64,000 nt of DNA from NCBI RefSeq assembly GCF_003841485.1, contig NZ_REFY01000004.1:372001-436000 (forward strand), given 5' to 3'. Positions within the stretch are counted from its first letter, which is position 1; each line of letters begins with the position of its first letter. The notes below the pieces were generated by a model. It had not been told where the DNA came from. It was given only the letters and a program-made list of their open reading frames with translations, and searched no databases. Position numbers and translations under genes: made by a program. This DNA comes from Natrarchaeobius halalkaliphilus (GTDB lineage Archaea; Halobacteriota; Halobacteria; Halobacteriales; Natrialbaceae). Of this stretch, positions 50,919 to 58,939 are shown piece after piece.

Positions 50919-52436
50919 ATGGCTGGCCCGATTCCCGATCTCGAAGAGCGCGCGACGCTGTGTGCGCGACGGCTGTACTCGGCCGATCGCGTTCTGCTCG
51001 CGTCCCACATCGACGCCGACGGGCTGACGAGCGCGGCGATCGCCGCCCAGGCGATCGAGCGCGCGGGGATCCCCTTCGAAACCGTCTTCGAGAAACAGCT
51101 CGACGAGGACGCGATCGCCGCACTCGCGGCGACCGAGTACGACACCGTGCTCTTTACCGACTTCGGGAGCGGCCAGCTCGACGTGATCGGTCAGCACGAG
51201 GACGCCGGCGAGTTCACGCCCGTTATCGCGGATCACCACCAGCCGGCCGATCGGGAAACGAAGTACCATCTCAACCCGTTGCTGTTCGGGATCAACGGCG
51301 CATCCGAGCTGTCCGGAGCAGGGACGAGTTACGTGCTCGCACGCGCACTGGCGGCCGTTTCCGACGACGGTTCGGACACGAGCCAGGGAGTCGCGACCGA
51401 CGGCGGCGTCGGCGCGAATACCGCGGCTCCGGACGACGCCACGGACGCCCGCCCGGACAACACCGATCTGGCGGCTCTCGCCGTCGTCGGTGCCGTCGGG
51501 GATATGCAGGCATCGAGCGGCGAACTTCACGGTGCGAACGCGAAGATCGTCGAGGAAGGCGTCGACGCCGGCGTTCTCGAGACGGGGACCGACCTCGCAC
51601 TCTACGGGAAACAGACCCGACCACTGCCGAAGCTCCTCGAGTACGCTACCGACGTGCACATTCCCGGCATCTCGAACGACGAACGCGGCGCGTTACGCTT
51701 TCTGGACGGACTCGACCTCGAGTTGAAACGGGACGGCGAGTGGCGTCGCTGGTCGGGGCTCACCAACGACGAGAAACAGACCGTCGCCAGCGCACTCGTA
51801 AAGCGCGCGGTGACGAAAGGCGTCCCCGCCACGAAGATCGACCAGCTCGTCGGGACCGCCTACGTGCTGGCCGAAGAGCCCGTCGGAACCGAACTCCGCG
51901 ACGCCAGCGAGTTCTCGACGCTGCTCAACGCCACCGCCCGCTACGATCGAGCCGACGTCGGCCTCGGCGTTTGTCTCGGAAACCGGGACGAGGCCCTCGA
52001 GCGCGCCCGGAAACTGCTTCGTAATCACCGACGGAACCTCTCGGCGGGAATCGATCTCGTTACCCGGGAAGGCGTCACCGTCGAAGACCACGTCCAGTGG
52101 TTCCACGCCGGCGATCGAATCCGGGAAACGATCGTCGGTATCGTCGCCGGAATGGCGATGGGGAACGCGGGAATCTCGAGGTCCAGGCCGATCCTCGCGT
52201 TCGCAGAAAAAGGGGTCGACGGCGACGACGAGCCCGATCTGAAAGTGTCGTCTCGAGGCACGCACAGCCTCGTTCGACGGGGACTCGACCTTTCGGTCGT
52301 GATGGGCGAGGCATCCCGGGCGGTCGGCGGCGACGGCGGCGGCCACGACGTCGCCGCGGGCGCAACGGTTCCGAACGGAGCCGAACGCGAGTTCATCGAA
52401 CGCGCCGACGAGATCGTTGGTAATCAACTCTCCTGA
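50919..52436 (+). CDS. RecJ-like DHH/DHHA1 single-strand nuclease
   Basis: 505 residues. Motif I SHIDADGLTSA, the DHH motif ADHHQPAD near 109-116, and a C-terminal DHHA1 with GGDGGGHDVAAGATV. An acidic insertion about 150-185 (DDGSDTSQGVATDGG) is disordered-looking. Archaeal members of this family include RecJ-type and GAN-type exonucleases that act with the replisome. Metal-site residues are all present. It is the last host-like gene before the AT-rich region. Confidence 0.92.
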   Translation: MAGPIPDLEERATLCARRLYSADRVLLASHIDADGLTSAAIAAQAIERAGIPFETVFEKQLDEDAIAALAATEYDTVLFTDFGSGQLDVIGQHEDAGEFTPVIADHHQPADRETKYHLNPLLFGINGASELSGAGTSYVLARALAAVSDDGSDTSQGVATDGGVGANTAAPDDATDARPDNTDLAALAVVGAVGDMQASSGELHGANAKIVEEGVDAGVLETGTDLALYGKQTRPLPKLLEYATDVHIPGISNDERGALRFLDGLDLELKRDGEWRRWSGLTNDEKQTVASALVKRAVTKGVPATKIDQLVGTAYVLAEEPVGTELRDASEFSTLLNATARYDRADVGLGVCLGNRDEALERARKLLRNHRRNLSAGIDLVTREGVTVEDHVQWFHAGDRIRETIVGIVAGMAMGNAGISRSRPILAFAEKGVDGDDEPDLKVSSRGTHSLVRRGLDLSVVMGEASRAVGGDGGGHDVAAGATVPNGAEREFIERADEIVGNQLS

Positions 52437-52534
52437 TCGCACGAGGAGAGCGCGGTTCGGAGCGAACGACGTGATCGAGAGCCCGGACTCTGCGGTGAGT
52501 GTGTGAATAGTTCACTTGTGAGCAGGGTACGCGA

Positions 52535-52558
52535 GACCACTCAGTCTGGAGAGTGGTC
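52535..52558. repeat. Hairpin after the RecJ-like gene
   Basis: GACCACTC and GAGTGGTC form an 8-base stem with an 8-base loop about 100 bases past the stop. No T-run follows, so it is not a convincing archaeal terminator. The remainder of 52437-52719 shows no gene. Confidence 0.5.
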
Positions 52559-52719
52559 GCTGTCGGACCTATGCATTATTCCCTATCTTCGCACACCAGG
52601 GGTCTGGCAGCTAATGGAGATACCTCTATGGCAAGCACGGCTTTATTCCACCGATAGAGCAACCAAACCGGGTCCTTAGACCTTACAATACGTTATCTGA
52701 CACTGGAAGCTACCAAATT

Positions 52720-53140
52720 CTAGAAAGAATCAAGGCTTCGTTGATCGTCCGTGACGCCTTTCCGGCCGCCGCCACCAACCGACCTTGGATCGACGATTTC
52801 CCCAGACTCGAGGCGGCGTTCGACCCACTCGGCCCGCTGACCGATATCCTCGAGATGATCGTATGGGTAGTGGGTGTTACCTTCGGTCAACCGATCAGTG
52901 ACGACGCGAAGGTTTCGACGAAATATATCGTTCGTCTCGTGGTCAAGCAGCGAGGGATCGGCCAGCACAAACGTCACCGTCCCACTCGAGATTGCAGCGA
53001 TCGACGTCGACTGGCTTGGCGAGGTCGGCTATGTCAACGTCGGTCGGAGGGTTCGTGTCTGTACCTGATTGCTCGAGACCCGCCTGCAGCGAGCTGCCAC
53101 CAGTCGTCTGTGAACTCGTACCACCACTCTCGTGCGCGTA
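52720..53140 (-). pseudogene. Frameshifted remnant of an unknown gene
   Basis: Two minus-strand frames meet at about 52975. The downstream one (FVLADPSLLDHETNDIFRRN, then LTEGNTHYPYDHLEDIGQRAE) and the upstream one (TDVDIADLAKPVDVDRCNLEWDGD) both look like protein of normal composition, and a single small insertion or deletion would join them. Neither has a good start. I do not recognise the family; the DNA is host-like in GC, so it may be an older resident gene broken at the island edge. Confidence 0.45.
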
Positions 53141-53182
53141 AGCGATACCGTGAGCTCCGTAAGTATCTGACTATTGTGCATT

Positions 53183-53368
53183 TCAAATAAGTCCGCGAAG
53201 AATATTAACTGCTGCAGACATGCTTGGTTGCTCATCTTCATGATACCAGCGGAGAGCTAAGGTTGCACCTAATAAAGAAGCAATAGTGATGAGTCCGAAG
53301 ATAACAACACCGGACATTAACAATCGAATTACGGTAATGGTATTTTCCATACTTTCATATCTGGTCAT
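53183..53368 (-). CDS. Single-span small membrane protein in the cysteine-rich cassette
   Basis: 61 residues, or 55 from the second ATG at 53350. One hydrophobic helix (VIRLLMSGVVIFGLITIASLLG, counted across about 20 positions) followed by ALRWYHEDEQPS. Codon use is AT-rich like the two genes before it on the same strand. Possible roles as immunity or accessory peptide are inference from position only. Confidence 0.5.
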   Translation of the reverse strand: MTRYESMENTITVIRLLMSGVVIFGLITIASLLGATLALRWYHEDEQPSMSAAVNILRGLI

Positions 53369-53611
53369 AAAGCAATATAACTTATGGTGATGTTTGGCCT
53401 GGGGCCTGTTCGGAAATTTGTTGTGTGATTCATCGAGTCGTTGATCAGTGATTATTCTGCGGCGTGAGAATGAAAGTGACCGACGATGACGGCTTAAGTG
53501 TGCCTTTCAAATGTCCTCACCAGCCGATGTACTAAAGCATATACCTGTCACAAACATCCTTGCAGCGTCATCCCAAAAATACAGTGTCCCGGATTTATAA
53601 AACAAAACCAG

Positions 53612-54526
53612 TTATTCTGGGATTTGATTCAGTGGGTGTTCAGCCAAGCGTTCGCCGGATTCCGAGCAAACTACGGCTAACACTTTGCGGGAATAACAAC
53701 ATGATTCGACAACATCCTCAATCAGTTCGACATCGCCGCGGTCGCTAGGACACTCTTCAAGGAACAGCCGAAGCGCGCTGAGTAACTCTCCCTTTTGTTG
53801 TGGGCGTCGTTGTTCCCAGTTTCCATCCCACTCGCTGAGAATAGAAGCAGCACTAACATCAGCTATGAGTGCAGCCTCAGAAGGCCACTGACCGATGATA
53901 TTATCGTCCTTTAGTAGTACTCGTGCGTCGTTATGTTTTTCAATAATATATTCCTCATTGGTTTCCTCAAGTCCAAACATACTAACAGCCTGATTGGAAG
54001 AAATCTCATCTGATTCCAGTGATTCAATACGCTCTGTCCATTCATTACCAAATGCTTCAGTAAGACAGAGGTCGTCTTGATTTTCACATTCTTTGAGCAC
54101 ATTCAATTGTTCGTAATAGATTTCGATATCAGTTTTCTCTTGGTTGTAATCAATAGAGGTAACTTCGCTCTCGCCTGCAGGTCTTGGATCACCAGAAGTG
54201 ACTGCCGTTGTCGTATTTTGTGCATCCTCTACATCCCCGAGCCCGGTCATTACTGGTGGTTTCTCAGGCTTTTTTCCAAACCAGCGAAGTACCTCCGGTG
54301 GAAGATACTGTTTTGTCAGCGTCGGTGTTCCAGGTACCAGATATCCGCGCAGGTAGATCAAACCGATTGAAACTCCGAACACAACTGCACTGAGAGCCTT
54401 GGACTTTCGAGCGATCGTGATGCCTGCAATGAACGCAATGGCTAGATTCAGTACTGTGCACGGAACACATCGATTTTCCCCGGTGTATTCTGGCTGCTCA
54501 AGTTGTTCGATTATTTTCACTACCAT
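53612..54526 (-). CDS. CVPC-motif membrane protein with soluble domain
   Basis: 304 residues. The N-terminus QPEYTGENRCVPCTVLNLAI has Cys20 and Cys23 just before two membrane helices (about 25-40 and 44-62); then LRGYLVPGTPTLTKQYLPPEVLRWFGK, a segment I recall in many haloarchaeal membrane proteins. Residues 110-304 are a soluble acidic domain with late cysteines (ESCCYSRKVLAVVC). A CxxC at the membrane face could take part in disulphide handling, or the protein could protect the producer; both are inference. It is 180 bases downstream of the cysteine-rich precursor gene on the same strand. Confidence 0.78.
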   Translation of the reverse strand: MVVKIIEQLEQPEYTGENRCVPCTVLNLAIAFIAGITIARKSKALSAVVFGVSIGLIYLRGYLVPGTPTLTKQYLPPEVLRWFGKKPEKPPVMTGLGDVEDAQNTTTAVTSGDPRPAGESEVTSIDYNQEKTDIEIYYEQLNVLKECENQDDLCLTEAFGNEWTERIESLESDEISSNQAVSMFGLEETNEEYIIEKHNDARVLLKDDNIIGQWPSEAALIADVSAASILSEWDGNWEQRRPQQKGELLSALRLFLEECPSDRGDVELIEDVVESCCYSRKVLAVVCSESGERLAEHPLNQIPE

Positions 54527-54625
54527 CGTTAATCACATCCAATCCAATCAATATAAGATTACCTTTACGACTATTGTTACTAACTTACAGAATGATGTAC
54601 AAAATAAGGGTAGACGATGGCGATA

Positions 54626-54636
54626 CCCCCCCCCCC
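54626..54636. repeat. Eleven-base C homopolymer
   Basis: A run of 11 C (G on the coding strand of the cassette) in otherwise AT-rich DNA between the precursor gene and the CVPC gene, about 100 bases before the start of the latter. The longest homopolymer I saw in the window; such tracts are prone to length change. Confidence 0.9.
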
Positions 54637-54706
54637 TTAAAAGCGTCCAGAGAAAGAAGACAGGTGGCGAGTCCTGCAACTCGTGCGTTTGAATTCCTCA
54701 ATGAGG

Positions 54707-55690
54707 TCAGCAATCGGGATAATTATAATCCTCCTCTGTAGGAATGTCTTCTAAATCACATTTTGGCAGTGGCAACTCCTGACCAGCATTTGGATTGAAC
54801 ATCGCACATGGGTGTGGATACAACGGAGGGTCAGGCTCATGGACATTTTCTTCCAGCCAAGATTCGCTTATATTCACTTCCACACTGTTAGAGGGACATG
54901 AGATGCAGCTCCCAGCTTCCCAGAGAGCAATACCAGCGCCGTAAGCACAGAGAAGGGCACTCAACGGGTTGGAAAACCCGGTCAGACAACCTAAAATCGC
55001 TGCCATGTCTATCCCAAGAGCCGATACTATACAGTCAGCGGACAGGCATGTTATTCCATCGTCAAAATCTACGGCTCTAACTTGAATCGTACAGTAGTCG
55101 TTTGAGGCAGGCAAAACTGCTACTGTTCCAACATCATCATCATCGTCTTCTTCGATCGTTGTGGTTTCAGATATTACTTCGTTTCCACGGATATCGTAAC
55201 TTGCTGCTTCGATTATTTTACTCCCAGATTCAGCAAGCATCTGACTGTTATCCGAAATGTGGACAATATTAGCACCTTTTGAAACATGATCAAAGTGTTT
55301 CGGTTCAGCATCATCTATTCCAAAAGTATCGTTTCCGTTCCAGATCAGACGGAAGTATTCGTCCTCTTCTTTATTACCGGAGTGATCAAATGGCAGCACT
55401 AAAGTGTCAAAACTACCCTGCTTTGATTCCGTTTCAACTTCTTTGGTCTTAGCCGTCGCTTCATTCCAGTTGGGTGACCAGCCCATGTTCTCCGCTTTTT
55501 CAATAAGCATCGACACCTCTTCATCATCTTTCAGCTTTCTCCGGAGGGAGTCATAATGATGAGAGTCTACTTCGGAGGCATTTATCATATTAAGTCCTTC
55601 GTTATCCTCATCAGCTCCAGCAACCGTGCTGGGAGTGACGGTTCCGAGTCCAATTACACCCATGCTTCGCATGAGATTTCTACGCTTCAT
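54707..55690 (-). CDS. Halocin C8-like (microhalocin) precursor candidate
   Basis: 327 residues from the ATG at 55688-55690 (MKRRNLMRSMGVIGLG). A twin-arginine signal (KRRNLM) with cleavage near AGA at 24-26. Residues 27-190 form a polar pro-region (FDTLVLPFDHSG, then RLIWNGNDTF) ending in an acidic run EEDDDDD. Residues 198-327 hold ten Cys, at 200, 215, 220, 235, 248, 262, 265, 295, 311 and 327, around a hydrophobic Gly/Ala-rich core (about 219-262). Halocin C8 is likewise made as a Tat-exported precursor with an immunity-conferring front and a ten-Cys C-terminal peptide. Length and Cys count fit, but exact Cys spacing was not aligned. The tail past 290 (Pro/Asp-rich) is longer than in HalC8. 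Confidence 0.72.
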   Translation of the reverse strand: MKRRNLMRSMGVIGLGTVTPSTVAGADEDNEGLNMINASEVDSHHYDSLRRKLKDDEEVSMLIEKAENMGWSPNWNEATAKTKEVETESKQGSFDTLVLPFDHSGNKEEDEYFRLIWNGNDTFGIDDAEPKHFDHVSKGANIVHISDNSQMLAESGSKIIEAASYDIRGNEVISETTTIEEDDDDDVGTVAVLPASNDYCTIQVRAVDFDDGITCLSADCIVSALGIDMAAILGCLTGFSNPLSALLCAYGAGIALWEAGSCISCPSNSVEVNISESWLEENVHEPDPPLYPHPCAMFNPNAGQELPLPKCDLEDIPTEEDYNYPDC

Positions 55691-56079
55691 ACAATAACAA
55701 TAGTATATATCCATGAATATAAATCTTTCTCCTGAACTGTTAATTATGGGCACCGCCTATATGAGAGTTTGAGAAGCGAACAGATGGTGGCGAGAAGTGC
55801 TCATGCAAGTCGATGGCCTGCTCAGAATGAGCTTAGATGGGTGAAAGAGGTAATATGCTGTATCAATTCTCTGTATCCGGCGTGTCTTCTCAGGAGAAGT
55901 TGAAACGAAACGTAGCGGTCTGTTCACTGCAGCACCTTCTCCAAGCAGACACCTACTCTAACCCGATGTGGTCGCCTGAAACCTGGGGTGCTGGATGATG
56001 AGTGACCATTGAGTTATTCAGGTTTACTTTCACTCCGGTACCGGACCCCTTTTATTCGCTTCTGCAAAAATATACGGCA
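55691..56079. other. Intergenic region between precursor and transposase genes
   Basis: 389 bases. The first 40 hold the precursor promoter. The rest has mixed composition, no convincing frame, and should contain the left end of the transposase element. I could not identify a terminal inverted repeat. Confidence 0.5.
55718..55724 (-). promoter_or_regulatory. TATA box of the halocin-like gene
   Basis: Complement of ATATAAA, about 31 bases before the ATG at 55690, giving a predicted start at the edge of the coding region. A second TA-rich run at 55703-55710 is too close to serve that ATG. Confidence 0.6.
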
Positions 56080-58197
56080 ATGACAAACAGATTCCCGACG
56101 ATCGCACCCTCACTCGGGGATGACTCCTCTCTTTCTTCAAATCTTTCTGAACTATCTGAGGTAAAAGACACAAAATCGGCAGACGATCCTACTGCGTCGG
56201 AATACTATCTCGACCTGGTGAAAGTTGCTTCACTCCGAAAGGAATTTGGCGTTGAACTGACCGGCCCAGATGCGTTTGAGGACGACATCACAATGGCGGC
56301 CCAAATCACAGCAGGAGAGATCATCGAGGGCCTCAACGACAAAGTTGACCTCGCCAAGGCCATCACCGACGCGATGATTCCGTTCGAATCGCTCGAGGAC
56401 CCGTACTGGGGCGATCATCCCGAAATTTACGAATTCGAGGTGATGCTTCGGTCGTTCATCTACGGTGAACTCAGAGGGATCCGTTACCACCAGGACCTCG
56501 CGGACTTCCTCGAGCGAAATCCCACGATCGCGTTCACGCTGGGGTTCAAGCCCGACTTCGGGCCGGAAAACGAATACCCAGCGTTGAACGTCTTCCAGAC
56601 GCCAAAGACACCACACCAGACGACAATCACTCGCTGTGCGAACAAACGGTTTCTCGCACAGGCAGAGCGATTTATCACCGACGTCGCCGACCGAGTCGAA
56701 GCCTACTGCCGCCGGCACACCCACCTCGTCGAGATGCACGAGCTGTGGAGTGAGACCGACGACACCAATCCAGGCGAGTCCGAGGAAAAACTCGACCCGG
56801 ACGGACTCACGAAAGAGCAAATCCGGCGGCTCGTGAACGAGTTGATGCGTCACGTCTGTCCGAATATTAGCTTCCAGCGTGGTGTGAGCAAGCAGATCCG
56901 GAAGAACCTCTTTCTTGAAGTCATCGCTCACTGCGGGCTGACGAACTCGAGTGTCTACGGCGGCGGTGACGTCTTCGATATCTACCTCTGCCCGGAAGAA
57001 GAGGAACTCCCGCACGGCCGGACGTTCTTCGACCATATGGAGGGAATTGCTCTTGAGGAGATGCTCGAGATGTTCGACGCCGCCGTCGAGAGCATGGTCG
57101 GCGGGGCGAAGGATATCGGTCTCTACGACCGGCCGGTTGACCTCGCGATCGACGTGACGACCGTCAAGTACACCGGTATCGGGAAGTCGTTCAGCTTCCA
57201 GACGCTGGCCGACCCGGATAGTGACGAGTGGAGCAAGCGGGAACGCTCCGAGGCGAAGGCGGCGATCGAGGAATGGGAACTCGAACCGATCGTCGGCGAA
57301 GACCCGGCGGACATCAAGCACGCGAATTTCGATAACCTGGAGAAGCGGGCGGCCGCCCGTCGCGTGAAAGATTGTGTTCGGTGGGTCAACGGCACGAAAG
57401 ACCAGGACGAGGAGATCGCATACGGCTTCCAGTTCGCTGCTGCTGCCTTCGCGGAGCACACGTGTCCGATGATCTACGGCGTCAAGCCGATCAACAACCG
57501 GACCGGTGACGAACTCGCTGGCCACGTCCGGCAGTTCGTCGAGCGCGCTCAGGACCTCGTCGTAGTCGATACCGTGTACATGGACGCCGCCTATGGCCGG
57601 TGTTCCGAGGTACACAATCTGTTTCACTACGGTCACGGATTCCGAACCGGCGATCGGTTTGACGTCGAGTACGTCACAAAGGTTCCCGAAAGGAGTCGCG
57701 GCAGGCGTGAGGTGCTCGAGGAACGGTACAAGATCGAGCATCGATTCGAGGACGGAAAGACGGCACTGAGCATCAAACGCAACTACGGTTTCGGCGATCA
57801 ACACAGCGGGACCGGGAACGCACACACGACGCTCGTGGCAGTGAAGAAATGGTCCGTCGACACCGTTGCGGACAAAGTAACCGACCGAGTGGTCTTCGCG
57901 ACGAACCACCAGGGCGAAGACCCAGTCGAGTTGATGCGATTTATCAACGGCTACCGTGACCGCTGGGTAATCGAGAACGGTTTCAAAGAGGTGAAGAAGT
58001 TCTTAGCTGAGACGCGCAGCTCGAGCGAGAAACCACGGCTGTTCTACTTCTTGTTCGCCGTCCTGCTGTTCAACGTCTGGATGCTGATCGATCGAGTTGC
58101 GAAGAAGCGTCTCGGCATGGAATTCGCCGGCGAACCGATCATCAAGTTCGAGGTGTTCGTCGCCGCCGTGGCAAACTTCATGCGGCCGGTAGACTAA
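56080..58197 (+). CDS. IS4-type DDE transposase
   Basis: 705 residues from the ATG at 56080 (MTNRFPTIAPSLGDDS); the frame extends to 56002 upstream with an improbable start. The C-terminal signature Y-(2)-R-(3)-E-(6)-K is exact in YRDRWVIENGFKEVKKF, which defines the IS4 group. Earlier acidic candidates are IDVTTVKYTG and VDTVYMDAAYG for the first two Asp. No stop or frameshift, so it may be active. Its GC is nearer to the host than the AT-rich cassette, suggesting separate arrival. Cut-and-paste transposition is expected. Confidence 0.85.
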   Translation: MTNRFPTIAPSLGDDSSLSSNLSELSEVKDTKSADDPTASEYYLDLVKVASLRKEFGVELTGPDAFEDDITMAAQITAGEIIEGLNDKVDLAKAITDAMIPFESLEDPYWGDHPEIYEFEVMLRSFIYGELRGIRYHQDLADFLERNPTIAFTLGFKPDFGPENEYPALNVFQTPKTPHQTTITRCANKRFLAQAERFITDVADRVEAYCRRHTHLVEMHELWSETDDTNPGESEEKLDPDGLTKEQIRRLVNELMRHVCPNISFQRGVSKQIRKNLFLEVIAHCGLTNSSVYGGGDVFDIYLCPEEEELPHGRTFFDHMEGIALEEMLEMFDAAVESMVGGAKDIGLYDRPVDLAIDVTTVKYTGIGKSFSFQTLADPDSDEWSKRERSEAKAAIEEWELEPIVGEDPADIKHANFDNLEKRAAARRVKDCVRWVNGTKDQDEEIAYGFQFAAAAFAEHTCPMIYGVKPINNRTGDELAGHVRQFVERAQDLVVVDTVYMDAAYGRCSEVHNLFHYGHGFRTGDRFDVEYVTKVPERSRGRREVLEERYKIEHRFEDGKTALSIKRNYGFGDQHSGTGNAHTTLVAVKKWSVDTVADKVTDRVVFATNHQGEDPVELMRFINGYRDRWVIENGFKEVKKFLAETRSSSEKPRLFYFLFAVLLFNVWMLIDRVAKKRLGMEFAGEPIIKFEVFVAAVANFMRPVD

Positions 58198-58681
58198 GCT
58201 GGCCCCGTTTCCGGTTCGACGATCGCGAGTGGCGACACTGTTCTGAACTTCGGTTTTCTGCGTTTTCCTGTCAGAATCCGCTAGATAGCCGACTCTAGTT
58301 TTCTGATAGAGCCTGCTTTCACTCGAAAAGAGGTGTGTTCTTACTTTTGTTCAGTGTTAGAAGTGCTTAGAGAATCCTGTTTCTCGATTAGCTGGTCTGG
58401 TGTTGTATATATCGAAATATAGTATATACCCACAGACGAGAGTCACAACAGTTCGGTACCAGCGGATACCACGGAAACCACGACTCTCACAGGAGATGCA
58501 CTTCAGTTAGCATTAATCAGTCAAACCGGGTTCCCGCGCTCGAGAAGACGGTGTGGCAGATCGTCGAGCGATCACTCGAGACGAAAATAGCAACTAAACC
58601 CGTCCGTCGACTCGAGACAAGCGACCGGATCACGTTCGATTCGACTCGAGCTCGACGGGACGTCACGATCGACGCGCAGTA
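58198..58681. other. Gene-free region after the transposase
   Basis: 484 bases, no good frame on either strand. It includes an AT-rich stretch TATATATCGAAATATAGTATATAC near 58410 (under 20-base parts) and an inverted pair GAGAGTC / GACTCTC spanning about 58437-58497. The right end of the transposase element must lie here but is not evident. It ends at the small acidic gene below. Confidence 0.5.
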
Positions 58682-58939
58682 TTAGGCTTCGCTGCTGAGG
58701 TCCGCGTCGACGCGAACTTCCGAATCGGTGATCGTCTCGATGTTTTCGCTCGGAATCTCTATGTCATCTTCGCCGGCACCGCCACGACCGAGACTCTGGA
58801 TCCAGGCGTTCGTAAGCGTTGGCTCGGGGTCGACGTACGCGACCTGTTCGATCGGATCGATTTCGGTGACGATGCCGATCTGTTCGCCTCGGACGTCCAT
58901 GAGAAACTTCCCTTCGTCCTCGGTGGAGAGCACTGACAT
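58682..58939 (-). CDS. Small acidic protein, PRC-barrel-like
   Basis: 85 residues from the ATG at 58937-58939 (MSVLSTEDEGKFLMDVRGEQ). GIVTEIDPIEQVAYVDPEP and the acidic rest suggest a short beta barrel of the PRC type, involved in RNA or protein contact in other systems. The N-terminal extension in the longer frame to 59029 looks non-coding. Assignment tentative. Confidence 0.6.
   Translation of the reverse strand: MSVLSTEDEGKFLMDVRGEQIGIVTEIDPIEQVAYVDPEPTLTNAWIQSLGRGGAGEDDIEIPSENIETITDSEVRVDADLSSEA

Follow-up and report, generated by a model that had tools for sequence, protein, structure and literature searches.

Few halocins are known at the gene level. Halocin C8-like precursors are already known, that of halocin C8 itself giving a ten-Cys peptide that kills haloarchaea, with immunity supplied by its front part, and a survey from 2019 reportedly showed the antimicrobial peptides of haloarchaea to be highly diverse. 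The locus considered here encodes a putative precursor, P0001, whose front appears to be related to the pro-domain of halocin C8 and whose Cys-rich end is of another type, together with a membrane protein with a CxxC motif, P0002, relatives of which recur beside other such precursors.

The locus and the inserted segment

A first-pass annotation of the window, by which we mean the whole 64,000-nt stretch of DNA that was analysed, had proposed a microhalocin cassette of three AT-rich minus-strand genes at 53183–55690, and all three are found there, with GC contents of 0.45 (P0001), 0.46 (P0002) and 0.40 (P0003), that is 40–46%, as against 62% (0.62) for the window. P0001 (54707–55690, minus strand) encodes a putative halocin-type precursor of 327 aa with a Tat-like start, a pro-domain and a Cys-rich end, P0002 (53612–54526, minus strand) encodes a protein of 304 aa, an accessory member of a membrane family that is widespread among haloarchaea and has an invariant CxxC, and P0003 (53183–53368, minus strand) encodes a single-span protein of 61 aa whose membership of the cassette is uncertain. 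Since relatives of all three are present in other genomes, they are real genes and not chance ORFs. P0001 and P0002 are separated by 180 bp, and a run of ten C between them, at window 54629–54638, is a possible slippage tract.

The genes lie on a low-GC segment of about 6.2 kb (52440–58688, limits approximate) that is absent from the same site in two of three same-genus genomes (G039 and G040), the third (G038) being uninformative there. The DHH-phosphoesterase gene (50919–52436) is present at 82–85% identity in all three, and the alignment picks up again at window 58.69–58.94 kb in G039, about 1.2 kb further on, and at window 59.1 kb in G040 after about 0.6 kb. In addition to the cassette, the segment contains an 85-aa ORF, which was not found in the other three same-genus genomes, and a DUF772/DDE transposase gene (56002–58197, plus strand). 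The segment was either gained in this genome or lost from its relatives, and its low GC favours gain.

P0001 and its relationship to halocin C8

P0001 starts with MKRRNLMRSMGVIGLG; to the eye, its RRNLM and the hydrophobic stretch behind it resemble a Tat signal, and homologues keep the RR pair almost without exception, but no Tat HMM of Pfam or NCBIfam scored on P0001 itself. Searches of Pfam and NCBIfam, the latter to E 10, returned no curated family match to P0001, and PDB sequences gave chance-level matches only (E 0.69), on which grounds a known enzyme or receptor was rejected as its identity. Foldseek and VIA-align searches with the models of P0001 and P0002 found nothing over background. 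Matches to P0001 at E 0.01 or better occur in 12 of the 125 family genomes, the weakest over the Tat region only, and the best (in G038) aligns over the full length at 32% identity. A profile of six P0001-type sequences has matches in 52 of the 391 genomes of the class, many only over the front, and some of these fronts sit in ORFs whose end matches the halocin C8-like model TIGR04449 (e.g. G105 C2, G076 C26). Decaying precursors of the P0001 type are also seen, with an internal stop or a split into two frames (G061 L004, G047 L011), and the relative in G039 has ATA at the expected start before RR (L062:1490–1520), with no ATG, GTG or TTG.

The ten Cys reported near the end of P0001 all fall within the last 128 residues (at 200, 215, 220, 235, 248, 262, 265, 295, 311 and 327), an arrangement for which random placement gives a chance of about (128/327)^10, roughly 1e-4. 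This Cys-rich domain (residues 200–327; 54710–55093, minus strand) comprises a predicted helical hairpin at 218–261 and a Pro/Asp-rich tail and is common to about a dozen other haloarchaeal precursors; in an alignment of 13 representatives Cys 220, 235, 248 and 262 are invariant and Cys 200 almost so (P0001 numbering). The tail with its Cys, described earlier as unusual, is not unique, HPC...MTKCELEDAPTREEYNYAEC being found also in G038 and a similar tail in G250.

When the Cys-rich end was checked with TIGR04449, no match was obtained. This model has nothing in the genome of P0001, though 23 of the 125 family genomes exceed its cut-off, and PF22862 (Hac8_like_N) matched neither 13 members of the P0001 family nor the P0001-family loci across 16 genomes; with both models lacking a match, membership of the halocin C8 family as these models define it was rejected. 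Profile comparisons of the fronts were made with hhalign after removal of the signal, with eight column shuffles as control. The P0001 group matched an intermediate group at 1e-8, and the intermediate group matched the halocin C8 precursors at 7.5e-7; the direct match of the P0001 front to halocin C8 precursors (1.2e-4, probability 55%) is short, at 40 columns, and the shuffles gave 0.59–1. The direct match coincides with a helix–loop–helix (residues 43–68; 55487–55564, minus strand) formed by helices 43–55 and 57–68 of the P0001 structure model, which is a weak one (pLDDT 63). The C-terminal profile of the P0001 group is significantly similar to that of the intermediate group (3.3e-5) and not to that of halocin C8 (0.033). 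On these comparisons the N-terminal region of P0001 shows distant homology to the pro-domain of halocin C8. The precursors of the two groups thus have a front in common but not an end, P0001 being by its sequence a halocin-type precursor with another warhead. The original idea of a distant relative of halocin C8 therefore survives for the front and the precursor architecture, but not for the C-terminus, which is not a halocin C8 domain.

P0002 and P0003

The membrane CVPC motif noticed in the second gene is confirmed (residues 20–23; 54458–54469, minus strand), and P0002 has two predicted membrane helices (21–39 and 43–63), the first of which has the motif at its edge. Both Cys of the CxxC are invariant in 19 aligned relatives of P0002, and none of the accessory copies aligned has lost the motif, which agrees with a redox function at the membrane. 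The suggestion that P0002 is dedicated to P0001 had to be rejected, because its relatives occur in 124 of the 125 family genomes, often several per genome, and because the closest P0001 homologues have no P0002 relative within about 9 kb. GC-rich copies are found at conserved chromosomal places, either beside genes identified by eye as larB-like and phosphoglucomutase-like or near one identified in the same way as a PAN-type ATPase gene. The only Pfam hit of P0002 is Phage_T4_gp36 (E 0.061, under its cut-off), DsbB and VKOR giving no match, and P0002 had no match in phages. Its model has two membrane helices, and fold searches with it gave no informative match. The topology cues conflict: the short RKSK loop suggests that both ends are outside, but the segment that follows the second helix is basic too.

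The third gene, P0003, has one hydrophobic span, as had been stated, and is the nearest small membrane ORF in the window, 1.34 kb past P0001. At 13 of 28 precursor loci the next 250 bp downstream bring, on the same strand, a small ORF with two or more predicted spans, compared with 4 of 205 other genes of the same regions (Fisher 1e-10), and we infer that these multi-span proteins are immunity candidates. A specific immunity function for P0003 is unsupported: its relatives, at 67–75% identity, are located elsewhere with no adjacent precursor, and for this reason it is not counted as a firm part of the cassette.

Accessory P0002 copies beside precursors

The association of P0002 with precursors was assessed in 33 copies with surrounding sequence, and, with a GC threshold (under 0.60 for AT-rich copies) and a distance (5 kb) that were both set after seeing the cases, a precursor was found near 7 of 7 copies below the threshold and 0 of 26 others. 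With the window left out, the figures are 6 of 6 AT-rich copies against 0 of 26 GC-rich ones (chance 1 in 906,192). An automatic precursor rule taken alone, which misses P0001 itself and the chromosomal precursors of G098 and G037 (these two were found by TIGR04449), finds a precursor near 4 of the 7 copies below the threshold and near none of the 26 others (P 9e-4); by this rule there is no precursor beside the degenerate plasmid copy pBOL4-2_49.8 or beside the Halomarina copy (37% identity). Precursors were present in none of 19 random regions of the same genomes. Several genomes have halocin C8 genes 12–14 kb away from a P0002 relative; these cases were counted as negative and the apparent association dropped, because the copies are GC-rich and at a conserved locus of related genera.

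The spacing between a P0002 copy and its Tat/Cys-rich precursor is 93 bp in G098, 321 bp in G092, 464 bp on the Halobacterium salinarum plasmids pKBTZ03 and pBOL4-2, 1.05 kb in G009, 1.1 kb on the plasmid and about 2 kb on the chromosome of G037, and 4.2 kb in G041; the copy on Haloferax larsenii pHl5678-1 is divergent, with three precursors around it, and in GN101 and NRC-34001 P0002 remnants lie by genes annotated as halocin C8-like. In a tree, ten accessory copies need about five changes, at least three of them forced by well-supported branches, so that on this phylogeny the accessory copies have at least three independent origins. The neighbour comparison thus bears out the repeated occurrence of a membrane protein with CxxC next to such precursors, but only next to a minority of them. 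Two outcomes had jointly been named as telling against the proposal: the lack of any curated halocin match, which was what we found, and homologues always without the CVPC gene, which was not. We know of no report of this association, and none appeared in the titles and abstracts of the literature searched, mostly non-subscription papers.

Several of these loci deserve mention in their own right. The precursor of G092 (L130:4995–5906), 321 bp after the P0002 relative, has 18 Cys C-terminally and represents another warhead type. A Haloarcula CBA1115 plasmid carries a P0002 relative and, about 10 kb away, a P0001 homologue; separately, plasmid NZ_CP010533 of Haloarcula sp. CBA1115 carries adjacent genes for a tetrapyrrole-methylase-type SAM methyltransferase, a 71-aa peptide ending in GIQIAGIVLPSSEA and a prolyl oligopeptidase (L124:10352–13503), a trio with the appearance of a split borosin cluster, for an N-methylated peptide, in an archaeon. 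The three precursors that flank the single P0002 relative of pHl5678-1 (L126:2143–7349) differ from one another. Both Hfx. larsenii NCIM 5678 and Halobacterium GN101 are listed halocin producers (PMC11509114), and since the former is the listed producer of halocin HA3, of 13 kDa (PMC11509114), one of the three could be the HA3 gene.

A probable mobile bacteriocin cassette

The explanation that we favour, with some confidence, is a mobile bacteriocin cassette of the halocin type that has recruited a membrane protein with CxxC. P0001 would be exported by the Tat pathway and cleaved to give a Cys-rich hydrophobic peptide from residues about 195–327. This peptide would probably be a helical hairpin locked by disulphides, followed by the Pro/Asp-rich tail, and may harm related haloarchaea, most likely at the membrane. 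The N-terminal domain, as a putative homologue of the halocin C8 pro-domain, would be a chaperone or immunity part, and the accessory P0002 may either form or shuffle disulphides of the exported precursor or protect the producer. That P0001 is a precursor of the bacteriocin type we consider quite probable. It might instead be an exported Cys-rich surface or binding protein with no bacteriocin activity, as the absence of a halocin model match and an acidic tail after the hairpin unlike known microhalocins would allow; this seems unlikely, as its relatives are patchy (12 of 125 genomes), lie on islands and plasmids and include decayed copies, all of which we count in favour of a bacteriocin cassette, and as fast-changing C-termini stand behind a common front, one common also to halocin C8 precursors, with a small membrane neighbour.

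That the accessory P0002 copies are functionally linked to the precursors is likewise probable. Plasmids and AT-rich islands could collect both genes with no such link, both being on mobile DNA and P0002 relatives lying beside only a minority of precursors; we think this improbable in view of the precursor within 5 kb of all six AT-rich copies, the rarity of precursors (none in the control regions), and the occurrence of the pairs on different islands and plasmids in varying gene orders. If the link is granted, maturation and self-protection have equal claims as the role of P0002. In a serious but lesser possibility, the peptide attacks a chromosomal P0002-type protein or complex and the extra copy shields the producer. 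The near-universal family, the several origins of accessory copies from the chromosomal lineage and their long branches beside unrelated warheads agree with this, as does the fact that, of the six family genomes with an accessory copy, three (G098, G037, G092) also keep a separate copy of the same group, and a housekeeping-type gene repeatedly captured by antimicrobial cassettes fits self-resistance by a spare target; against it, these warheads are too unlike for one obvious common target, the genome of the window has only a more distant second P0002 and none of the close group, and the CxxC is retained in every aligned accessory copy, as a redox role would need. It is an even bet that unrelated cassettes of the halocin type have, on several independent occasions, taken up a conserved haloarchaeal CxxC membrane protein, either as a common factor for disulphide maturation or as a resistant copy of a target common to these peptides.

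Comparison with known systems

If these precursors form a superfamily in which one front domain is joined to interchangeable Cys-rich ends, much of the halocin diversity that has gone unseen would be accounted for. A recurring P0002-type partner would be a marker for finding such cassettes, and P0002 would be a concrete candidate for disulphide formation in archaeal bacteriocins or for producer survival. P0001 resembles the halocin C8 precursor ProC8 in its Tat-like start, its apparently homologous pro-domain front and its nature as a single gene of about 300 aa with a hydrophobic, Cys-rich C-terminus containing ten Cys. It differs in Cys spacing, in domain and in gene neighbours, and its Cys occupy a stretch of 128 residues that includes a Pro/Asp-rich tail, whereas ProC8 gives a 76-residue peptide. 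P0002 has its CxxC at a membrane helix edge as do the membrane thiol oxidases DsbB and VKOR, but unlike these it is predicted to span the membrane twice and has additional Cys in a large C-terminal domain, and it gave no Pfam match to them. The combination of a conserved front with variable C-terminal effectors and a likely adjacent immunity gene recalls polymorphic toxin systems; in contrast to those, the P0001-type ends are peptide-sized and Cys-rich rather than enzyme toxins, and export would be of the Tat type, with no repeat-rich carrier.
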